Part shown: positions 2,802-16,657 of the stretch, one piece after another | Numbering within the stretch: position 1 is the stretch's first letter | Layout of the letters: every line of letters starts with the position of its first letter | NCBI GenBank assembly: GCA_030637065.1 | Contig: DAOVVQ010000002.1 | Coordinates: 1-33,654, forward strand | Length of the DNA stretch: 33,654 nt | Source: Planctomycetota bacterium | GTDB lineage: Bacteria > Planctomycetota > Phycisphaerae > Sedimentisphaerales > Anaerohalosphaeraceae | Reading direction: 5' to 3' | Translations under genes and position numbers: made by a program | The notes under the pieces: model-generated | Told to the model about the DNA's origin: nothing | Seen by the model: the letters and a program-made list of their open reading frames with translations, nothing else | Databases searched by the model: none

Positions 2802-2853
2802 AACCGGCAGGGAAGGGTTTAGCAGGGCGTATCGTTTGGCAGGAAGGCGTAAA

Positions 2854-3966
2854 ATGCGTCAAAAGGTGCCGGATAACCCGAATCGATCTATTCGTCAGGG
2901 CCCAAAGCAGTCGCCCTGGAACGGGAGGCCCACCGGCTCAGCCGGACTAAAGACAACCGGCCTGATCGCCGAATCGGATCGGCTCCGGACGGCCTGGACG
3001 CAGTACGAATCGGATCTGCTGGACCGCTACCTCGTAACCGGCGTCGAGGACCCGCGGATCAACCTGCAAAGCATCATAAGCAGGGCGTTTCTTATCGATG
3101 CGATCCGGCCGGACGATTTTACCGGCCTTGTGCAGGAGGAGTTTCGCTTCAGTATCTGTCTGAACTTTATCCTGCATATTCTCATGACCGGGTGTTTTCA
3201 GGCAAGTCGCAAATCGATTTTAGATGCGATCGTTCAGGACCGGCAGGCTTATGGCGATGTCGTGATCCCGTCCTACCTCCGGCGATGCTTCGAGTTGATC
3301 TCCGGCGAAAAGCGGGATATACCGGACTATATCGCCCAGGCTCTTACTCGATCCGCTTCGGGTGAGAACAGCTACCTGCCCGATGGGGCCCTTTCGACGT
3401 TCGAGCATATCTGGGGCAGGGAGCTATCGTTCCATGGCGAAGCGAAAAGCATATCGGTGCTGGAGCCCGCCTGCGGATCGGCGAATGACTATCGTTACCT
3501 GCATTCCTTCGGCGTCTCTAAGTTCCTGGACTATACCGGATTTGACATCTGTGCCAAGAATATCGCCAACGCGCGTCGCCGGTTCCCGACAGTGGATTTC
3601 GAGGTCGGAAACGTTCTTGACATCCCAGCCGATGACAAATCTTATGACTATCTTTTTGTGCACGATATCTTCGAGCATCTCTCTCCCGCGGCGGTCGATA
3701 TCGCGCTGGCCGAGATTTGCCGTGTAACCCGCAAAGAGGCGTGTCTGTCCTTTTTTAACATGGCTGACATTGACGAGCATGTTGTCGAGCCCGCGGGGCT
3801 GTACTACTGGAATACGCTGAGCGTTAAGAAAGTTCGCCGGGTTCTGATGGATTCGGCCTGCGATATCGATGTAGTCCATATCGATACTTTCCTGAGGGAC
3901 AACTACGATTGCGATGATTATCACAACAAGGAAGCTTATACGCTTATGGTTTCGTTCGATGCCTGA
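2854..3966 (+). CDS. Class I SAM-dependent methyltransferase with about 190-aa N-terminal extension
   Basis: Motif I VLEPACGSANDYRYL, motif II YTGFDICAKNIANARRRFP, motif IV DKSYDYLFVHDIFEHLSP. The track start (2836, TTG) is less likely than ATG 2854, which has AGGAAGG about 6 nt upstream. Confidence 0.8.
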   Translation: MRQKVPDNPNRSIRQGPKQSPWNGRPTGSAGLKTTGLIAESDRLRTAWTQYESDLLDRYLVTGVEDPRINLQSIISRAFLIDAIRPDDFTGLVQEEFRFSICLNFILHILMTGCFQASRKSILDAIVQDRQAYGDVVIPSYLRRCFELISGEKRDIPDYIAQALTRSASGENSYLPDGALSTFEHIWGRELSFHGEAKSISVLEPACGSANDYRYLHSFGVSKFLDYTGFDICAKNIANARRRFPTVDFEVGNVLDIPADDKSYDYLFVHDIFEHLSPAAVDIALAEICRVTRKEACLSFFNMADIDEHVVEPAGLYYWNTLSVKKVRRVLMDSACDIDVVHIDTFLRDNYDCDDYHNKEAYTLMVSFDA

Positions 3967-4967: not shown

Positions 4968-6341
4968 ATGATTATGAAGACACGCAAAATAACACGTCGG
5001 CGTATGCTAAAGGCCGGTTCGGCGATCGCCGCAGCCACAGCCGTACCGACAATCGTTCCGTCGACCGTTTTTGGCAAAAATGCGCCGAGTAACCGTGTTA
5101 CCGTGGCCCAGATAGGCGCCGGCGGTCGCGGCAATATCCATTTAAGGTCATATCTACAACTGCCAGGCGCCCAGATCGTGGCGGTCTGCGATTGTTACGG
5201 CTCGCGCATGGAAAAGGCGGTCGAACTCGTTAACCAGCAATATGCCGGGCGTTTTGACAAAGCCGGGTATTCCGGCTGCGAAATGACCGGCGATTTTCTG
5301 GAATTATTAAAACGCGATGACATCGATGCCTTTTCCATTGCCACGCCGGACCACTGGCACGTGCCGATCGCCATCGCAGCCGTCCGCGCCGGCAAAGATG
5401 TCTACGTCGAAAAGCCCCTTGGCGTAGCTGTCGCCTGGAACCAGGCATTAAGGGCCGCTGTGAAGCGTTACGGCGCGGTCTTGCAATACGGCACCCAGCA
5501 GCGCTCAAGCCGCAACTTCCGATTCGCCTGCGAGTTGACACGCAACGAGTATATCGGCAAGCTCGAGCGCATCGAGGCGTGGTGTCCGGGTATTTTGCAG
5601 CAGTATGGTAGCTTCAATGTCAAGCAATATGGCTCGACGGCCCCTGCCCCGGTCCCCGACGACCTGGATTTCGACCGCTGGACCGGCCCAGCCCCCAGAG
5701 CTGCCTACACCGTGGATCGCTGCACAAAGTTCGGCACGTATCACATTTACGATTACGCCCTGGGTTTCATAGCCGGATGGGGCGCTCACCCGCTGGATAT
5801 CGCGCAGTGGGGCAACGACACCGACGATACCGCCCCCGTCTACTACGAAGGCAAAGGCGAAATCCCCTCCGAAGGGCTCTACGACACCACCTCGACATGG
5901 GATATTAGCTGCGAGTATGCAAACAGTATCAAAATGCGGTTCATGGATTGGCGCATCGCAGAGCCGATAGTTTCTGACTACCGAAAGTTCACCGCCCACG
6001 GCACCACGTTTTTCGGCACCAAAGGCTGGGTCAGCGTCGACCGCGGCGGCATCTATGCGAGCAAGCCGTCTCTTCTTAATATCAAACTCAAACCCAATGA
6101 CGAGCACCTCTACGAAAGCAACGATCAATTCGGCAATTTCATCGAGTGCGTAAAGACCCGGGCAAAAACCATTAGCCCGGTCGGCGCCGCCGTGCAATCG
6201 GATATCATTTCGCACCTCAGCGATATCTGCATCCGGACGGGCCGCCCGATACGGTGGGACCCCAAAAAGGAAGAAATTATCAATGACCCCCAGGCGAGCA
6301 CAATGCTCAACCGGTCGTGCCGGGCGCCCTGGAGTGTATAA
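4968..6341 (+). CDS. Gfo/Idh/MocA family oxidoreductase, Tat-exported
   Basis: Tat leader KTRKITRRRMLKAGSAIAAATA; Rossmann VTVAQIGAGGRG; EKPLG motif; ATPDHWHVPIAIAAVRAGKDVYVEKPL. Confidence 0.92.
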   Translation: MIMKTRKITRRRMLKAGSAIAAATAVPTIVPSTVFGKNAPSNRVTVAQIGAGGRGNIHLRSYLQLPGAQIVAVCDCYGSRMEKAVELVNQQYAGRFDKAGYSGCEMTGDFLELLKRDDIDAFSIATPDHWHVPIAIAAVRAGKDVYVEKPLGVAVAWNQALRAAVKRYGAVLQYGTQQRSSRNFRFACELTRNEYIGKLERIEAWCPGILQQYGSFNVKQYGSTAPAPVPDDLDFDRWTGPAPRAAYTVDRCTKFGTYHIYDYALGFIAGWGAHPLDIAQWGNDTDDTAPVYYEGKGEIPSEGLYDTTSTWDISCEYANSIKMRFMDWRIAEPIVSDYRKFTAHGTTFFGTKGWVSVDRGGIYASKPSLLNIKLKPNDEHLYESNDQFGNFIECVKTRAKTISPVGAAVQSDIISHLSDICIRTGRPIRWDPKKEEIINDPQASTMLNRSCRAPWSV

Positions 6342-6407: not shown

Positions 6408-9400
6408 ATGCAAAAAACGAAGCAAATATGGAGTGTCTTGATCCTCCTTGTTCTCGCAACGTCTGGTTGGGCGCAGGGCGAAGGAGGAGTGCGGGTTGAA
6501 AAGCACGCCTCGGAAATGAAGACTGTGCGGGCGAGAACCGCTCGGGAAATTATCAACACAAGTGGTTTCACGGGTGGTCTTGTCGTGCATGTCGGGCCAG
6601 GCGACGGTGCGTTTACCTCTGAATTGTTCGCGAACGACCGTTGCGTTGTCCAGGGGCTCTACAGCGATGGAGACCTTGTCGGCGCCGCCCGCAAAAAGAT
6701 CGCAAAACAGGGCCTGTACGGCAAAGTGTCGGTCCGACATTGGGACAAGGACTATCTCCCCTACGCGGACAACCTCGTAAACCTCCTGGTCGTCGCCGGC
6801 CCCGGTGATGTCTCCATGGACGATGTTTTCATGAATGAGGCGATGCGTGTGCTGGCACCGCTTGGATCGGCTTTCACCAAGTCGGGCGATAGTTGGGCCA
6901 GGACGGTCAAGCCGTGGCCGAAAGAGATCGACGAATGGACCCATTATTTGCACGGGCCGGACAACAACGCCGTTGCGCAAGACAAAGTCGTCGGCCTGCC
7001 GAGGCGAGTGCAGTGGATCGGCTTTCCAAAATTCGCCCGCAGTCACGACCACCTGGCAACCGTCAGCGCGATGGTCTCGGCCCGAGGGCGGCTTTTTTAC
7101 ATTATCGACGAGGGGCTGACGAGCGATATCCGCATGCCGCCGAGATGGCGTCTGGTGGCCCGGGACGCCTTCAACGGTACGGTCCTGTGGAAGCGATCGG
7201 TCGATCGTTGGACGAACCATTTGCGCCGATTTCGCTCTGGCCCGCCGGACTTGCCGTTCCGGCTGGTCGCGGTGGGAGAGCGTGTGTATGTGGCCTTGGG
7301 GGAAGGCAAGCCGGTCGTGGCGTTGGAGGCGGCGAGCGGAAAAACAGTGACGACGTATAAAGGCTCGGAAAATGCGAGACAGATCATTCGTGCCGCGGAC
7401 TGTTTGATCGTGCAGGTCGGCGTCGATCGGGAGACGGTTCGTAAGCCCCCCGAGGACGGCGAATCGGTCCGCGCAAGCATCCTGGCGTCGAATCCTGAAA
7501 CGGGAGAGCGGCTTTGGCGCAAGGAAATCAACGTTGGGATGTTTTCCCCTCTGGTGGTGTCGGGCGATGCCTTGTTGTACCAGACAAGGGAGCGTCTTGT
7601 GTGTCTGGAATTGAAAACAGGTGACGAGAAATGGAGAAAGGTCCGCAACGTTAATATTAATAATACGAGTTGGGCGTCGCTAACGTTGACCGCTCACAAG
7701 AACATCGTGTATGTTGCCGACTTCAGCAAACTCACCGCATTTCCCGTCGAGGATGGCGCGGCCCTTTGGGAATGTTCAAGCGCGCCGGGATTTGCTTCGC
7801 CCCCCGATATTTTCGTGATCAACGATTTGCTCTGGCGCGGGTATACGAAGAATAGAGGATCCGCGGATTTCGGGCAGGGCCTCAATGCGAGAACGGGGAA
7901 AATCGAGAAGACTATCGCCACGGAAAAGGCGTGGGAATATCCCACACTGGCACATCATCGTTGCTATCGCCCCAAAGCGACCAGTCGCTTCATCCTGTCC
8001 AGCCGGTCGGGAGTTGAGTTTATCGACGTCGAGTCCGGCAAGATCGATCTCAATCACGCGGTGCGTGGGACCTGTCAGTATGGAGTGATGCCGAGCAACG
8101 GCCTCTTGTACGCCCCGCCCCACTCCTGTGCCTGCAATATCAAGACGATGGCAAAAGGCATATACGCATTCGGCCCGCCGGCCCGCGGGGCACCGAAACC
8201 GAGCGCGGAGGATTCTCGTTTTGAAAAAGGACCCGCCTACGAAAGCATTCGCAACTCGCAACTTGCAATTAACAATTCCTCCGACTGGCCGACATTTCGC
8301 CATGACAACGCGCGAAGCGCACGCACCGCAAGCAAGGTGCCGCACGATCTCCGGCAGATGTGGACGTCGAAGCCGGGCGGACGGCTATCGAGCCCTGTTG
8401 CCAGCGATGGGAAAGTTTTCGTCGCCGCGGTCGATACGCATACGGTTCACGCTTTGGACGCGGCAAGCGGCGCATCGCTATGGTCGCACACCGGCGGCGG
8501 ACGCATCGATTCCCCGCCCACGATATACAAAAACAGGGTCTTCTTCGGCTCGGCCGACGGCTGGGTCACCTCTCTTCTCGCGGCGGACGGAGCGCTCGTC
8601 TGGCGTTTTCGCGCCGCCCCGGAGGAGCGCACTGTCATGGTACGCGGACAACTGGAATCCGCATGGCCCATTCATGGCAGCGTCCTTATTAAGGACGATA
8701 CGCTTATTGTCGCTGCGGGGCGATCGTCCTACCTCGATGGCGGTATAACCGTCTACCGTCTTGACCCGAGCACCGGAAAAAAACTCTCGCAAACCACCTT
8801 ATACAGCCTCGATGCAAAAACCGGGGAGCAACCGGACGGCGGCGTCGATCTGCGCGGCGTTTTGAACGACGTCCTTTCCGTCTCCGGAGGATCGGTATAC
8901 ATGCGGCATTTGAAAATCAATTTCGAGACTGGCGACGATCTCGGGGTCGGGCCGCCGCATTTATTTGCCCCCACAGGGTTCCTGGACGACACCTGGTGGC
9001 ATCGTTCCTATTGGATTTATGGATCGGACCCGGTCTGCATGCCTCCCGTTAATGAATCGGGATGGCAGATCTGGCCGCGTGTGGGCAATATGGTTCCTTC
9101 CGGACGCATTCTTTCGCTGGGCGAGGAGACGGTTTATGGCTACGGCCGCGACAAATATCCGGGCGGAGGCACGGGGCAAATTGTCGGGGGCGAAAAGTAT
9201 CACTTATTCGCTGCCGAAAAGAGGCCCTTTGAGCCGCTGCCAAGTAATAAAGAAAATCAACACCTCCGCTATGGGCGATCGGGCACAGCCCTCGGCCTCA
9301 AAGTAACCGAGCGAGACAAACAGCATGGCGCGCCGGGTTTACACCGCAACCTCTGGAGCCAAACCGTGCCTGTTTTTGTCAGGGCGCTCGCGTTGGCCGA

Positions 9401-9665
9401 TACGACTTTGTTATTGGCAGGTCCGCCGGAAAGGGCCGAAATGAGAAGTGACAGCATGACGTTCACGGAACCTGATAAAGCAGAGGCCGCCTTCCTGGGG
9501 CGGCAAGGGGCGTCACTGTTGTTGGTTGATGCGGCGGAGGGAAAACAATTGGCTGAATATGAATTGGAATCGTCTCCGGTTTTTGACGGTATGATTGCCG
9601 CCCGGGGCCGTATTTTTGTTTCTTTGGAAAACGGTTCGATCGTGTGTTTTGGTAAATATCGCTGA
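6408..9665 (+). CDS. Exported multidomain protein: N-terminal methyltransferase-like domain followed by two PQQ-binding-like beta-propeller modules
   Basis: Sec-type signal MQKTKQIWSVLILLVLATSGWAQ; MTase-like VVHVGPGDGAFTSEL...LYSDGDLVGAARKKI...LPYADNLVNLLVV; propeller repeats such as VYVALGEGKPVVALEAASGKTV and VFVAAVDTHTVHALDAASGASLWSH; second module starts at DWPTFRHDNARSA. Confidence 0.82.
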   Translation: MQKTKQIWSVLILLVLATSGWAQGEGGVRVEKHASEMKTVRARTAREIINTSGFTGGLVVHVGPGDGAFTSELFANDRCVVQGLYSDGDLVGAARKKIAKQGLYGKVSVRHWDKDYLPYADNLVNLLVVAGPGDVSMDDVFMNEAMRVLAPLGSAFTKSGDSWARTVKPWPKEIDEWTHYLHGPDNNAVAQDKVVGLPRRVQWIGFPKFARSHDHLATVSAMVSARGRLFYIIDEGLTSDIRMPPRWRLVARDAFNGTVLWKRSVDRWTNHLRRFRSGPPDLPFRLVAVGERVYVALGEGKPVVALEAASGKTVTTYKGSENARQIIRAADCLIVQVGVDRETVRKPPEDGESVRASILASNPETGERLWRKEINVGMFSPLVVSGDALLYQTRERLVCLELKTGDEKWRKVRNVNINNTSWASLTLTAHKNIVYVADFSKLTAFPVEDGAALWECSSAPGFASPPDIFVINDLLWRGYTKNRGSADFGQGLNARTGKIEKTIATEKAWEYPTLAHHRCYRPKATSRFILSSRSGVEFIDVESGKIDLNHAVRGTCQYGVMPSNGLLYAPPHSCACNIKTMAKGIYAFGPPARGAPKPSAEDSRFEKGPAYESIRNSQLAINNSSDWPTFRHDNARSARTASKVPHDLRQMWTSKPGGRLSSPVASDGKVFVAAVDTHTVHALDAASGASLWSHTGGGRIDSPPTIYKNRVFFGSADGWVTSLLAADGALVWRFRAAPEERTVMVRGQLESAWPIHGSVLIKDDTLIVAAGRSSYLDGGITVYRLDPSTGKKLSQTTLYSLDAKTGEQPDGGVDLRGVLNDVLSVSGGSVYMRHLKINFETGDDLGVGPPHLFAPTGFLDDTWWHRSYWIYGSDPVCMPPVNESGWQIWPRVGNMVPSGRILSLGEETVYGYGRDKYPGGGTGQIVGGEKYHLFAAEKRPFEPLPSNKENQHLRYGRSGTALGLKVTERDKQHGAPGLHRNLWSQTVPVFVRALALADTTLLLAGPPERAEMRSDSMTFTEPDKAEAAFLGRQGASLLLVDAAEGKQLAEYELESSPVFDGMIAARGRIFVSLENGSIVCFGKYR

Positions 9666-9846
9666 AAAAACCGCGAGCTAATATCTCCGGTGGAATTGAA
9701 ATTAAAATAATCGTCGACAAAGTCGGCTTCGACCGACTAAAATATTGAGCAAAGCGAAATCCCGATCTATCGGGACTAAATACTAACGACTAAAAAATCG
9801 GTCGGTTTGAGTAATGTTAACATTTAGATCGGAAAGGTGGAAAGGT

Positions 9847-10767
9847 ATGTTAAGACGTCAAATAGCAGCAGTTGTTCTAATCCTGGTTTTCGCGGCGATC
9901 CCGGTTTCGGCAGGTTCGTCGTCTGCAAAAACCCTCAAGGCTTTGATAGTCGACGGCCAGAATAATCACAATTGGCAGGAAACGACGCCGGTCCTGAAAA
10001 AACTCCTTGAGCAGACGGGGCTCTACAAGGTCGATGTCGCTACCTCGCCGGCGAAGAAGGAGCCCATGGAGGACTTTAAGCCGGCCTTTGCCAGATACGA
10101 TGTCGTCATCTGCAACTATACCGGCGACGAATGGCCGGCCAAAACCCGCAAGGCCTTCGAGCGTTACATGAAAAACGGCGGCGGGCTGGTCGTATTTCAC
10201 GCTGCGGACAATGCCTTCCCTCAGTGGCCGGCCTATAACGAGATGATCGCCATCGGCGGATGGGGCGGTCGCAACGAAAAGTCCGGGCCTATGGTACGAT
10301 GGCGTGATGGCAAGGTCGTTTACGATACCAGCGACGGCAAAGGCGGCCAGCACCCACCTCAGCATGAATTTCAGGTGATAACCAGGGACAAACAGCATCC
10401 GATCACCGCCGGGCTGCCGGAGAAGTGGATGCACGCAAGCGATGAGCTTTACAGTGCCCTGCGGGGGCCTGCCAAGAATATGACGGTCCTGGCGACGGCG
10501 TACTGCGATCCGGATCAAAAGAACGGGACCGGCGAGCATGAGCCGGTGCTATTTACGATCGACTACGGCAAGGGCAGGGTATTTCACACCGTGCTCGGCC
10601 ACGCCGGCGCGCATATGGAGTGCGTTGGCTTTATCGTCACCCTTCAGCGACGCACCGAATGGGCGGCAACCGGACGCGTTACGCAAAAGCACGTCCCAGC
10701 CGACTTCCCCAAGCCGGACCGCGTAAGCAGAAGGCCGGGCCATAAAGAGCCCAAAAAATCCAAATAG
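9847..10767 (+). CDS. ThuA domain-containing exported protein
   Basis: ThuA-type motifs [97 protein letters not shown]-like region, [12 protein letters not shown]. Start moved to ATG 9847 (GGAAAGG upstream, clear signal peptide [23 protein letters not shown]) from the track start 9814. Confidence 0.88.
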
Positions 10768-10803: not shown

Positions 10804-12537
10804 ATGAAGCGACGTGACTTTTGCAAGGCGGTAGCTCTTGGCGTAACGATAGGTCCTGCAGCGGCGAAGGCGTTTTGGCCTTTTGGCAAAAAGAAACCCA
10901 CCCGGCCCAATATTATCGTCATCCTGTCGGACGATATGGGTTATTCGGATATCGGCTGTTACGGCAGCGAGATCAAGACGCCGGCGCTCGACGCTCTTGC
11001 AGCAGACGGCCTTCGGTTTACGCAGTTTTACAACACGGCACGCTGCTGTCCGACGCGGGCATGTCTCCTCAGCGGTCTGTACCCGCACCAGGCAGGTATC
11101 GGTCACATGATGAACGATCGAGGCGTCGACGGCTATCGCGGCGAGTTGAACCGAAACTGCATGACGATCGCCGAGGTGCTCCAGACGTCCGGTTACGCCA
11201 CCTACGCCGTGGGCAAATGGCATGTAACCAAGGGCACCCAGCCGGACGGACCCAAGCACAACTGGCCCATGCAGCGCGGATTCGAGCATTACTACGGAAC
11301 GATCCACGGTGCGGGAAGTTTCTGGGACCCCTCAACGCTGGTACGCGATAACACGATGATCACCCCGCCGACCGACCCGGAATATCAGCCCGATGAGCCT
11401 TACTACTACACCGATGCGATCTCCGACAACGCCTGCCGCTTCATCGACGAAAGCGACGCCGACAAGCCATTCTTCATGTACGTCGCACACACCTGCGCAC
11501 ACTGGCCGATGCACGCCCGCCCGCGAGATATCGCCAAATACAAGGGCAAATATGACGCCGGCTACGAGCCCATCCGCAAGGCGCGTTTCGAGAAGATGAA
11601 AAAACTCGGCGTAATCAAACCCGATGCCGAGCTGTCTCCCCCTGCGGGCCAGTGGAAGGATATCGAAGACAAAAAATGGGAAGCGGCCTGCATGGAGGTC
11701 TACGCCGCCATGATCGACAATATGGATCAGGGCATCGGTCGTATGGTCAAGAGCCTCAAGAATAAACGAATACTGGACGATACGCTGATCTTCTACGTTC
11801 AGGATAACGGAGGATGCGCCGAAGCCGGCGGACGAAGCAACAAACCCAGCCCCCGGGCCGATAAACCCACGCTCGCTCCGCTCGCCGACGATGCGCAGCA
11901 CTACTTTGGCTCGACGCCGAAGCAGACCCGCGACGGCTGGCCCGTCAGGCGCGGACACGTCTGGCCCGGCCCCGCTGATACATACATCGGCTACGGCAAG
12001 AACTGGGCAAACGTCTCGAACACGCCGTTTCGCGAATACAAGCACTGGGTCCACGAGGGCGGCATATCGACGCCGCTGGTCGTCCACTGGCCAAACGGCA
12101 TCGACGCCGAGAACGAGCTTCGCCACCAGCCGGCCCACCTCATCGACCTGATGGCAACCTGCGTCGATCTCTCAGGGGCCAAATATCCCACGCGATTCAA
12201 GGGAGAGGATATCAAGCCGATGGAAGGCAAGAGCCTCGCCGGTGCCTTTGCAGACAAACCTATCGGGCGAAAGACCATATACTGGGAGCACGAGGGCAAC
12301 CGGGCGATCCGAATCGGCAAGTGGAAACTCGTGGCCAAGGGCAATGCCGGACAGGTAGATGTTCAGTGGGAACTCTACGACGTAGAGGCCGACCGCAGCG
12401 AACTGCACAACCTCGCGCAGCAACAGCCGGAACGAGCCAGAGAGATGGCCGCTCAGTGGCGATCATACGCCGAGCGAGCCAACGTCATCCCATGGTCCGG
12501 GCAGAATAATAAGAAGACGCCGGCAAAGAAGAAGTAA
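10804..12537 (+). CDS. Sulfatase (arylsulfatase-like, family S1), Tat-exported
   Basis: Leader MKRRDFCKAVALGVTIGPAAA; RPNIIVILSDDMGYSDIGCYGSEIKTPALDALAADGLRFTQFYNTARCCPTRACLLSG (C-x-P-T-R signature); GKWH; ELYDVEADRSELHNLA. Confidence 0.94.
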   Translation: MKRRDFCKAVALGVTIGPAAAKAFWPFGKKKPTRPNIIVILSDDMGYSDIGCYGSEIKTPALDALAADGLRFTQFYNTARCCPTRACLLSGLYPHQAGIGHMMNDRGVDGYRGELNRNCMTIAEVLQTSGYATYAVGKWHVTKGTQPDGPKHNWPMQRGFEHYYGTIHGAGSFWDPSTLVRDNTMITPPTDPEYQPDEPYYYTDAISDNACRFIDESDADKPFFMYVAHTCAHWPMHARPRDIAKYKGKYDAGYEPIRKARFEKMKKLGVIKPDAELSPPAGQWKDIEDKKWEAACMEVYAAMIDNMDQGIGRMVKSLKNKRILDDTLIFYVQDNGGCAEAGGRSNKPSPRADKPTLAPLADDAQHYFGSTPKQTRDGWPVRRGHVWPGPADTYIGYGKNWANVSNTPFREYKHWVHEGGISTPLVVHWPNGIDAENELRHQPAHLIDLMATCVDLSGAKYPTRFKGEDIKPMEGKSLAGAFADKPIGRKTIYWEHEGNRAIRIGKWKLVAKGNAGQVDVQWELYDVEADRSELHNLAQQQPERAREMAAQWRSYAERANVIPWSGQNNKKTPAKKK

Positions 12538-12571: not shown

Positions 12572-15500
12572 ATGAAGGCAACAAGTCAGCAGAAAAACGG
12601 GGACTGGTACGTTCTGCCGCAAGGCAGGTTGTACCTGTACCCGCTTTTCGTACGCAATGCGGTAGCAGCTATCACAATATGTTTTGTCCTGATAGTTGCG
12701 GGGCTATGGCTATGCACTCCAGCGGTCGCCGGCGACTGGCCCACACACCGTTTTGACGGGCGACGAAGCGCTGTCACCACGGAAAATATCGGCCCCGAAC
12801 TTTATCAGCAATGGGTTTTCCACTCGCCGCACACACCCAAACCCGCCTGGCCGAGCCCCGCTGAGGAGATGCCGAGAATGCACTCTGACAGCACCTGCAA
12901 TGTCGCCGTAGCCGATGGAAAGGTTTACTTCGCATCGGCGACGGCGGGCAAGGTCAACTGTATCGATCTCGCCGGCGGCAAGGCCAACTGGTCGTTTTTC
13001 ACCGACGGTCCCGTGCGTTTTACTCCCTCCGTGCATAACGGACGCGTCTATTTCGGCTCCGATGACGGCTATGTCTACTGCCTCGACGCCAAAAGCGGCG
13101 AACCGGTCTGGAAATATCGCGCAGGACCATCTGCTGAAAAGGTTATCGGCAACGGCCAGATGATCTCGCTGTGGCCGATTCGCACTTCCGTTATCGTCGA
13201 CGACCGGCAGGTCCTCTTTGCCGCTGGCGTGTTTCCATACGAGGGAATATACGTCTGCGCCCTCGACCCCTCCGACGGCTCGGTAATCTGGCGAAACGAT
13301 ACCGTAGGCGATCGCGCCCACGAACTCGATTTCGGCGGAATGTCGCCCCACGGCTACCTCGTCGCATCCGACGACATCGTCTACGTTCCCTCCGGAAGGG
13401 CGCTGCCAGCCGCTTTTAGCCGCAAGGACGGGAAATTCCTGTTCTTTACAAGGGTCATCGGCAAGCACGGCGGAGCCTGGACCATGCTCGCAGGCGACAA
13501 ACTGCTCGCAGGCGTCGACATGTCGGGCAGTCCGCAAAAGGCCTTCTTTAACGCCTCCACCGGCGCGAGTATCAAAAACTCCCTCAGCCGAATCCCCGCG
13601 ATTGATATGGTCGCTTCCGGGGAATTGTTTTATGCCCTGACCGAAGATGGGATCCAGCAGGTCAGCCAGGAAGACAATAAGGGCCGGTGGCAGTATAAGC
13701 GTAAGGACCTCTCGACCCTCGTTCTTGCAGGTTATACGCTCCTCGCCGGCGGAAAAGATTTTGTCGTCGCCGTCGATACCGAAACCGGCAGCGAGATGTG
13801 GCAACGCGATATTTCCGGCACAGCCGTCGGATTGGCGGTCGCCGATGGCCGGCTCATCGTCAGTACCGACAGCGGCAAGATACATTGTTTTGCCGATCGA
13901 AAAAATAATGCCCCCGCCCAACTTCGCAGCGACCCTCTGCCCGACGTCTTTCCCAAAGACAGCTTGACCTCGCTCTACAGGAAGATGGCCCGGCAGATCG
14001 TCGATGACTGCGGCATTACAAAAGGATATGCCCTCGTCCTCGATTGCGGCACCGGTCGCCTCGCCTTTGAACTGGCTAAGAATACGGATTTGCAGATCGT
14101 CGGTCTGGAAAACGATCCCGACAAACTCCGCCTGGCCCGCGAAAAACTCGATTCAGCCGGACTGCTCGGCACGCGGATCGTTGCCCAGCCGTGGCAACTG
14201 GATGATCTGCCAGAGTATTTTGCAAACCTGATCGTATCGGATTCGATGTTGATCTCGGGAAAGACCGGCGCATCAAAACAACAGGCCCATCGCCTCCTGC
14301 GTCCTTATGGCGGCACGGCATATTGGGGCCGCCGGAGTATATCCGACAAGTTCGTCCGCGGAAAGCTCGAAGGAGCCGGCGAATGGACCCAGCAGTTTGC
14401 AAACGCCCAAAATACCGCCTGCTCGAATGACGATCTGGTGGCTGGGCCGTTGGGCGTCCTGTGGTATGGCGAGCCGGGTCCGCAGGGTATGATCGAAAGA
14501 CATGCCGACGCGGCAAGCCCGGTCTCTGTCGAGGGGCGGATGTTTGTCCAGGGCGAGCACCGGATCATGGCTGTCGACGCCTATAACGGGACCGTGCTCT
14601 GGGATAGAGAGCTGCCCGGCGCGGCACGAATGCTTGCCAAGGCTGATTCCGGCAATCTCGTCGCCAATGCCGACGGCCTTTACCTCGCAGCCAGAGCGAA
14701 ATGTTACCGCCTTGACCCGGCAACGGGCGATACCGTGCGGATATATACGATGCCGCCGTCTAAGGACAAAATGCCGAAGCGATGGGGATACGTTTCCGTC
14801 CAGGGCAACATCCTCTACGGCTCGGCGGCGGAGGCGATGGATAACGATTACGGTTCGATCGTCGACGTCCTTGTCGAAAACGGAAAGTGGAAGGACAAGG
14901 AGCGCATACCCGAAGAATATGTCTCTGTCTACGAGATGACCATAGAGAAGTACCCCGTTCCCGATGAAGATTTCCTCCGTGAACTCGAGCGAAACGGCGG
15001 GCTCTGGAAGCCTATGCGCCCACGTCCCCGAGGCGGCGAATTCACCATCAAAAATGCCGTAACCGAAAATGTCACTGTCAGCGACCAGGTCTTTGCCCTC
15101 GATACCGAAACAGGAAAGCTGCTTTGGACGCACCGGGGAAGCCGGATCGCAGACACAACGATCACTATAGGCGACGGCAAGCTGTTTCTTACGCGTCTTG
15201 ACACCTCGCCGCAGCAGAAGAAACTTGCACTGAAAGAACAGATCCGACTTGCCGCCTCCGGCAGATACCTTAGCCGTACGGATATCACGCAGCAACTCGA
15301 CAGCAACAAGAAAAGACTCGGCGCTATTGGCGACGATGCTTCCAGCAATCAGACGCGGAAGTTCAAATACATGATAGATGCGCTCCAGGCCGAGCTGGAA
15401 CTCAGGGAAGGGACCCTGAACTTTGACGATTATGACATCAGAACCGTCACTGCCGTCGATGCTGTCACGGGCCGAAAGCTCTGGGAGAAGGTTTACGATC

Positions 15501-16657
15501 TCACGGGCTGCGGCGGCGACGCCATGGGCTCGGCCCTGCAGGACGGTAAGGTGCTGTTCTTCGGCAACCACGGCAATCACGATGCGTGGCGACATCAGGC
15601 CGGCGGCATGGAGTGGCGGCGGATCACGGTGCTAAACGACCAGGACGGCGAGCTTATCTGGTCGCGACCGCTTAACTACCGCACGAGGCCGGTCATCGTC
15701 GGCGATAAGATCATCATCGAGCCAAAGGCCTGCGACCTTGCCACCGGCGAGATCGTTATGCGAGCCCACCCGGTCAGCGACGAGAAAGATCCGTGGGAAT
15801 TCCTCAGACCCGGACATACCTGCGCACTGATCTCGGCATCGTCGGAGATGCTGTTCTACCGCTCGTCGTGCATAGCGATTTACGATATGGCCGGCGACCG
15901 CGGCGTAACGCTCTTCGGCGGATACCGGCCCGGCTGTGCCATCAACATGATACCTGCCGGCGGAGTCCTGCTCTCGCCCGAGGCCAGCGCGGGCTGCACA
16001 TGTTCGTATCCACTGAGGTGTTCGTTCGCCCTTGTAACCAAGCCCCGCCGCAGCCAGCCATGGAGTGTCTTTATCTCGTCCGGCGATATGAAACCGGTTA
16101 GCCATTTTGCCGTCAATCTCGGGGCTGCCGCCGACATGAAAGACGACGACGGCACCGTCTGGTTCGGGTACCCCAACCCTATGACGAATTATCTCAAGAA
16201 CCACTATCCCGATTACGGCATGAAGTTCGACCTCAATGAGCAGATCGCCGCCAGCGGCTATTTCGCCGCGGACCACAAGGGCCGAACCATCGCAGGAACC
16301 GACAGGCCGTGGCTGTTTACATCCGGATGTCTCGGTATGACCAAATGTCTCGTTGCCCTCGAGGCCGAAGGCGCACCAGCCCATAAATACACGGTCCGCA
16401 TGGGCTTTATGCCCCGACCCGGCGATCGTCCCGGTCAGCGGGTCTTCGATATAATGATCCAGAACCGCCTCGTGGCTGGGAACTTCGACCCGTATAAGGA
16501 TGCCGGTGGACCTGACAGGGCGGTCGTTAAGGAATTCAGCGGTATTAGCGCAACCGACGCGCTGAAGATCGAATTGCTTGCCCGCTCCTCGACTTCCGCT
16601 GACAACGCCTCTCTGATCAACTTCATCGAGGTCGTCAAAGAGTATGACGGCAAATAA
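12572..16657 (+). CDS. Very large (1361 aa) exported/membrane-anchored protein: PQQ-like beta-propeller, internal methyltransferase-like domain, second PQQ-like propeller
   Basis: Hydrophobic leader NAVAAITICFVLIVAGLWLCTPAVAG; module starts at GDWPTHRFDGRRSAVTTENIG; propeller repeats VYFGSDDGYVYCLDAKSGEPVWKY; internal MTase-like YALVLDCGTGRLAFELAKNTDLQIVGLENDPDKLRLAREKL; second propeller from about 14400. Confidence 0.82.
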   Translation: MKATSQQKNGDWYVLPQGRLYLYPLFVRNAVAAITICFVLIVAGLWLCTPAVAGDWPTHRFDGRRSAVTTENIGPELYQQWVFHSPHTPKPAWPSPAEEMPRMHSDSTCNVAVADGKVYFASATAGKVNCIDLAGGKANWSFFTDGPVRFTPSVHNGRVYFGSDDGYVYCLDAKSGEPVWKYRAGPSAEKVIGNGQMISLWPIRTSVIVDDRQVLFAAGVFPYEGIYVCALDPSDGSVIWRNDTVGDRAHELDFGGMSPHGYLVASDDIVYVPSGRALPAAFSRKDGKFLFFTRVIGKHGGAWTMLAGDKLLAGVDMSGSPQKAFFNASTGASIKNSLSRIPAIDMVASGELFYALTEDGIQQVSQEDNKGRWQYKRKDLSTLVLAGYTLLAGGKDFVVAVDTETGSEMWQRDISGTAVGLAVADGRLIVSTDSGKIHCFADRKNNAPAQLRSDPLPDVFPKDSLTSLYRKMARQIVDDCGITKGYALVLDCGTGRLAFELAKNTDLQIVGLENDPDKLRLAREKLDSAGLLGTRIVAQPWQLDDLPEYFANLIVSDSMLISGKTGASKQQAHRLLRPYGGTAYWGRRSISDKFVRGKLEGAGEWTQQFANAQNTACSNDDLVAGPLGVLWYGEPGPQGMIERHADAASPVSVEGRMFVQGEHRIMAVDAYNGTVLWDRELPGAARMLAKADSGNLVANADGLYLAARAKCYRLDPATGDTVRIYTMPPSKDKMPKRWGYVSVQGNILYGSAAEAMDNDYGSIVDVLVENGKWKDKERIPEEYVSVYEMTIEKYPVPDEDFLRELERNGGLWKPMRPRPRGGEFTIKNAVTENVTVSDQVFALDTETGKLLWTHRGSRIADTTITIGDGKLFLTRLDTSPQQKKLALKEQIRLAASGRYLSRTDITQQLDSNKKRLGAIGDDASSNQTRKFKYMIDALQAELELREGTLNFDDYDIRTVTAVDAVTGRKLWEKVYDLTGCGGDAMGSALQDGKVLFFGNHGNHDAWRHQAGGMEWRRITVLNDQDGELIWSRPLNYRTRPVIVGDKIIIEPKACDLATGEIVMRAHPVSDEKDPWEFLRPGHTCALISASSEMLFYRSSCIAIYDMAGDRGVTLFGGYRPGCAINMIPAGGVLLSPEASAGCTCSYPLRCSFALVTKPRRSQPWSVFISSGDMKPVSHFAVNLGAAADMKDDDGTVWFGYPNPMTNYLKNHYPDYGMKFDLNEQIAASGYFAADHKGRTIAGTDRPWLFTSGCLGMTKCLVALEAEGAPAHKYTVRMGFMPRPGDRPGQRVFDIMIQNRLVAGNFDPYKDAGGPDRAVVKEFSGISATDALKIELLARSSTSADNASLINFIEVVKEYDGK

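Follow-up and report, generated by a model that had tools for sequence, protein, structure and literature searches.

A class I methyltransferase fold, probably repurposed, in a family of predicted exported two-propeller proteins from Planctomycetota

The window, a stretch of 33,654 nucleotides from a Planctomycetota bacterium, encodes a protein in which profile searches and structural models place a real class I methyltransferase (MTase) fold behind a predicted signal peptide. We assign a probability of about 0.6 to the reading that this is an exported two-propeller protein whose MTase fold now serves a different purpose, as an integral part that packs on the propellers and does not methylate, most paralogues keeping a remnant of the nucleoside pocket. 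The original prediction had already proposed a repurposed domain, which is still the best reading of the data, although it was made without knowledge of the roughly 31 copies in the same genome or of the two propeller halves. No name or description of this family was found in Pfam, NCBIfam or the literature. The features discussed below are as follows.

6408..9665, plus strand: whole gene, 1085 aa, with signal peptide, MTase-like domain and two BamB/PQQ-like propeller halves (open reading frame, Pfam and model)
6408..6476, plus strand: signal peptide, aa 1-23 (sequence; model helix 2-19, low confidence 23-34; family statistics)
6519..6911, plus strand: MTase-like Rossmann domain, aa 38-168, about 130 residues (profile search, AlphaFold, Foldseek, Pfam)
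6582..6626, plus strand: motif I, VVHVGPGDGAFTSEL; family consensus HxGCGDGxLTAAL (alignment)
6654..6668, plus strand: motif II, GLYSD, with Tyr85 (6660-6662) in place of the family Asp/Glu (alignment)
6756..6785, plus strand: LPYADNLVNL, conserved block before and into strand 4 (conservation)
6909..6980, plus strand: conserved junction KPWPKEIDEWTHYLHGPDNNAVAQ, start of propeller 1 (conservation; resembles SSDWPTFRHDNARSA at aa 625)
6930..8282, plus strand: first BamB/PQQ-like propeller half, boundary approximate (Pfam, model)
7941..8141, plus strand: block with invariant H516, R518, C519, R553, C556, N564, Y568, C574 and C576 (69 of 69 homologues)
8283..9662, plus strand: second BamB/PQQ-like propeller half (Pfam, model)
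12572..16657, plus strand: second protein of the superfamily, 1361 aa; propellers enclose a divergent MTase-like domain (13973-14614), and the C-terminus is malectin-like

The 1085-residue protein starts with MQKTKQIWSVLILLVLATSGWAQ, a Sec-type signal peptide, and this signal peptide (MQKTKQIWSVLILLVLATSGWA) lies upstream of the MTase-like domain, as had been claimed. From the sequence, we read the cleavage site as lying near GWA/QG. A heuristic that asks for charge at the start, for a hydrophobic core and for small residues at the cleavage site was passed by 139 of 149 complete homologue N-termini (approximately 93%), compared with 259 of 2980 shuffled sequences; the other ten N-termini failed it. 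By this measure the Sec signal peptide is kept among the homologues, and export of the window protein is predicted. We know of no extracytoplasmic supply of S-adenosylmethionine (SAM) in bacteria, and a literature search found no described case. To our knowledge, the cytoplasm is the only place where the methyl donor would be expected, and the fold has therefore probably been given a new job.

The domain has the Rossmann-like MTase fold that characterizes the class I SAM-dependent methyltransferase fold superfamily, with predicted strands at residues 57-62, 79-85, 107-111, 124-129, 149-159 and 162-167. A profile built from 37 homologous MTase-like domains had 3dlc as its best PDB match (3.3e-9), followed by SpnF (4pne), 7v6h and RebM (3bus). 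AlphaFold modelled the isolated domain with a pLDDT of 88.9 and a pTM of 0.84, and the best 50 matches listed by Foldseek for this model were all MTase-fold proteins, with 3dlc at the top (E 7.6e-10, TM 0.72 by query length). Pfam matches of the window copy itself are borderline: Methyltransf_11 (aa 61-155) scored 18.3 bits on the whole protein, below the cut-off of 21.2, and 22.2 bits, just over it, on the isolated domain. Across the family, Methyltransf_25 was matched by 67 of 69 homologues and Methyltransf_11 likewise by 67, and together with the 3dlc profile match and the Foldseek result this rules out a chance resemblance. The three peptides in which the original prediction recognized Rossmann MTase motifs all lie in this open reading frame, and structure prediction, which it had proposed as a check, returned the MTase fold. 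The fold is nevertheless shorter than that of a functional enzyme, whose complete core includes strands 6 and 7 and a substrate region: in the window domain, one strand follows strand 5. The profile alignment with 3dlc ends at residue 163 of 219 of that structure, indicating that the domain lacks the C-terminal portion found in a usual MTase.

The SAM motifs are kept in most of the family and altered in the window copy. Among 137 core copies, strict GxGxG is found in 115 and the motif II acidic residue (Asp or Glu, at the end of strand 2) in 121, whereas the adenine-side Asp of motif III is present in only 61. The LPY residues are near-fixed (136, 136 and 134 of 137) and N125 occurs in 132 of 137. 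The preservation of motifs I and II in most paralogues suggests that, taken as a whole, the family could still bind a nucleoside; a residual pocket of the nucleoside type, with possible ligand binding, is probable in most paralogues. In the window copy, motif I retains the glycine-rich pattern as GPGDG, as the original prediction had noted, but Pro64 takes the place of the usual Cys in motif I, and the canonical motif II Asp, expected in a functional enzyme, is Tyr85, a loss that the prediction had overlooked. On the tree, the window protein groups with L062, L063, L064, L065 and L071 in a subfamily of six that has full support. Motifs I and II are altered together in this subfamily: Tyr or Cys replaces the motif II acid in all six members, and the Cys of motif I is absent from every one of them. 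The conservation check suggested for this acid found the residue kept in most core copies and lost throughout the window subfamily.

The acid is absent from 16 of the 137 core copies, and its loss was counted nine times on the core-family tree, at least six of these being independent on well-supported branches; the counts are label changes, so that a few may be regains. Changes in motifs I and II are coupled across the core family (Fisher p = 0.0003, with kinship of the sequences ignored). Two sets of more divergent relatives lack the acid in 14 of 20 and 13 of 20 members. In ten pairs from the window subfamily, conservation of the MTase part fell short of that in other pairs matched for propeller identity (0.47 vs 0.58 and 0.57 vs 0.60). 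Across 69 distant homologues, 11 columns of the domain and junction are invariant.

The MTase-like domain ends at about aa 168 and leads into the junction DEWTHYLHGPDNNAV, which is similar to the sequence that opens the second propeller half, SSDWPTFRHDNARSA. BamB/PQQ-like propeller repeats were detected by Pfam across much of the remaining protein. AlphaFold modelled the full protein with a pLDDT of 87 and a pTM of 0.91, and the latter value would argue for a fixed domain arrangement. The fusion itself appears constant. When the propeller 1 block HHRCYR...RGTCQYG...NGLLY...HSCAC was used as a probe in the protein's own genome, every copy had the MTase domain or started at a contig end, and no copy without the domain was found where the N-terminus was complete. 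Nine residues of propeller 1 are invariant in all 69 homologues, a set chosen for having the MTase domain. This block of Cys, His, Arg, Asn and Tyr residues may form a metal site, disulfides or the active site of an undescribed propeller family, and the Cys/His/Arg cluster is most likely a better candidate active site than the MTase-like domain. No named NCBIfam propeller family was reached at its cut-off, with scores of 95.8 bits for BamB (TIGR03300 equivalog, cut-off 285.2) and 42.2 bits for PQQ-dependent alcohol dehydrogenase (TIGR03075, cut-off 480). A link to the lambda-carrageenase propeller (PF25292) was set aside, since weak matches on a few paralogues only were taken as generic propeller similarity.

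The protein's own genome (3.56 Mb) contains 36 matching places, which reduce to about 31 N-terminal copies, four of them truncated by contig ends, after one split match was joined and four divergent "internal" copies were set aside. By a rough count (31 copies of ~3.3 kb), the family takes up nearly 3% of the assembly. The own-genome copies are spread over many separate groups of the tree, with the 31 rows requiring 24 label changes. These paralogues are old by this phylogenetic measure, and recent tandem duplication is ruled out as the cause of the conservation. Another genome of the same order has 16 copies. The distribution is patchy: the family was found in at least 6 of 31 near genomes and, in a survey of the whole phylum, in at least 23 of 149, with copy counts in that survey running to at most 19 scored candidates. 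When GTDB genomes were scanned, their contigs yielded at least 543 related loci, mostly from Planctomycetota, all counts of relatives being lower bounds. Some of these loci are in bins labelled Kiritimatiellota, Armatimonadota, Sumerlaeota, Verrucomicrobia and others, and some of the non-Planctomycetota bins may be mis-binned. Neighbouring family copies, four or five per array, occur on single contigs at L019 (G000:C161) and L021 (G000:C153). An extra LamG (concanavalin-like) domain is located near the C-terminus of L072 (4890-8831) and at the N-terminus of the divergent L058 (1956-4697).

The second superfamily protein of the window keeps a Glu in motif II (GLEND) and has DCGTG as motif I; comparable internal MTase-like copies were seen in L037, L038, L057 and L061. 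The window also carries a further, separate MTase gene (2836-3966), for which no signal peptide is evident; in it, Methyltransf_25 matches aa 208-300 (1.2e-12), preceded by an unassigned N-terminal region of 200 aa. Two sulfatases (1194-2801 and 10804-12537) flank the region, together with a Tat-signal Gfo/Idh/MocA gene (4968-6341) and a ThuA-like gene (9814-10767). The sulfatases, the ThuA-like and Gfo/Idh/MocA genes and other envelope-type neighbours would fit a role in polysaccharide use. Across the family, no single neighbour family was prominent as a recurrent partner, the largest cluster of neighbouring open reading frames being mixed (25 loci).

In the proposed mechanism, the N-terminal class I MTase fold would be retained as an integral module, packed against the propellers and without methylating activity. 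Most paralogues would keep in this module a nucleoside-type pocket with possible ligand binding. In the window subfamily, where the key pocket residues are gone, the module would probably be purely structural or serve protein-protein contact. Chemistry or ligand recognition would most likely occur at the invariant cluster of propeller 1. The persistence of the domain despite repeated loss of the acid and a shortened fold makes methyl transfer unlikely as the shared function; at least six losses, a domain found in every copy with a complete N-terminus and an end soon after β5 favour the repurposed, non-methylating module. A point against it is that the frequencies of GxGxG and the motif II acid exceed the needs of a plain scaffold, which suggests a bound ligand, possibly SAM. 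A possible but unlikely alternative is that in most paralogues the domain is an extracytoplasmic sensor of SAM, S-adenosylhomocysteine, adenosine or a related compound that gates or tunes the propeller, the window subfamily having changed its ligand. Such a sensor would fit the strong preservation of motifs I and II in old paralogues, although not of the motif III Asp, as well as the joint change of both motifs in the window subfamily and their coupling across the core family; against it, the acid is lost in many copies that still have the domain.

It is improbable that the protein is a true SAM-dependent methyltransferase working at the cell surface or in the periplasm and receiving SAM by an unspecified route. 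Genuine SAM MTases are the closest folds and most copies have both GxGxG and the motif II acid, but our literature search found no described extracytoplasmic SAM supply, the normal C-terminal part is absent and the family has tolerated losing the acid several times. We consider a decaying gene-fusion leftover without a role quite improbable. The somewhat faster domain of the window subfamily, lacking the motif II acid and the motif I Cys, is what decay would produce, yet a domain that is present whenever the N-terminus is complete, is modelled at a pLDDT of 89 and has many invariant positions makes simple decay unlikely. The original prediction argued against decay from motif I; its conclusion stands, but the argument was incomplete, given that the window subfamily has no motif II acid. 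A cytoplasmic protein with SAM available as usual, its hydrophobic N-terminus being a membrane anchor or the result of a wrong start, is very improbable: the signal peptides were called by a heuristic that some homologues failed, but the pattern recurs in nearly all of them and the partner domains are exported-type propellers, LamG or malectin-like. The repurposed, non-methylating module is therefore our preferred reading.

In this family, a fold that binds a cofactor in the cytoplasm appears to have been moved out of the cell and to have multiplied into about 31 old paralogues. Copies that keep the SAM motifs and copies that lost them independently constitute a natural experiment on whether the domain binds nucleosides outside the cytoplasm or is a scaffold. 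It is doubtful that this large, widespread family, predicted to be exported, binds SAM or another adenosine compound outside the cytoplasm, whether as a substrate or as a signal, and has some 31 specialised copies in one cell; if true, this would mean an undescribed extracytoplasmic nucleoside chemistry in Planctomycetota.

Among known systems, the class I SAM methyltransferases of the Methyltransf_11/25 type (3dlc MMP1179, RebM, TleD) share with the window domain the fold, the strand order as far as present and GxGxG; they have the motif II acid in common with most paralogues, whereas it is absent in the window copy. In contrast to these enzymes, the family is predicted to be exported and fused to propellers, its domain has ~130 aa with little beyond strand 5, and the motif III Asp is not kept. 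SpnF (4pne), an MTase-fold protein with a cyclase function and a case of this fold with a new job, is a close fold match to the window domain, but is a cytoplasmic single domain without a propeller. The eight-bladed BamB and PQQ-like propellers (BamB, tetrathionate hydrolase, PQQ alcohol dehydrogenases) have the propeller fold in common with the window protein. The window protein scores far under the family cut-offs and, unlike these propellers, combines two propeller halves, a Cys/His/Arg block and an N-terminal MTase domain.
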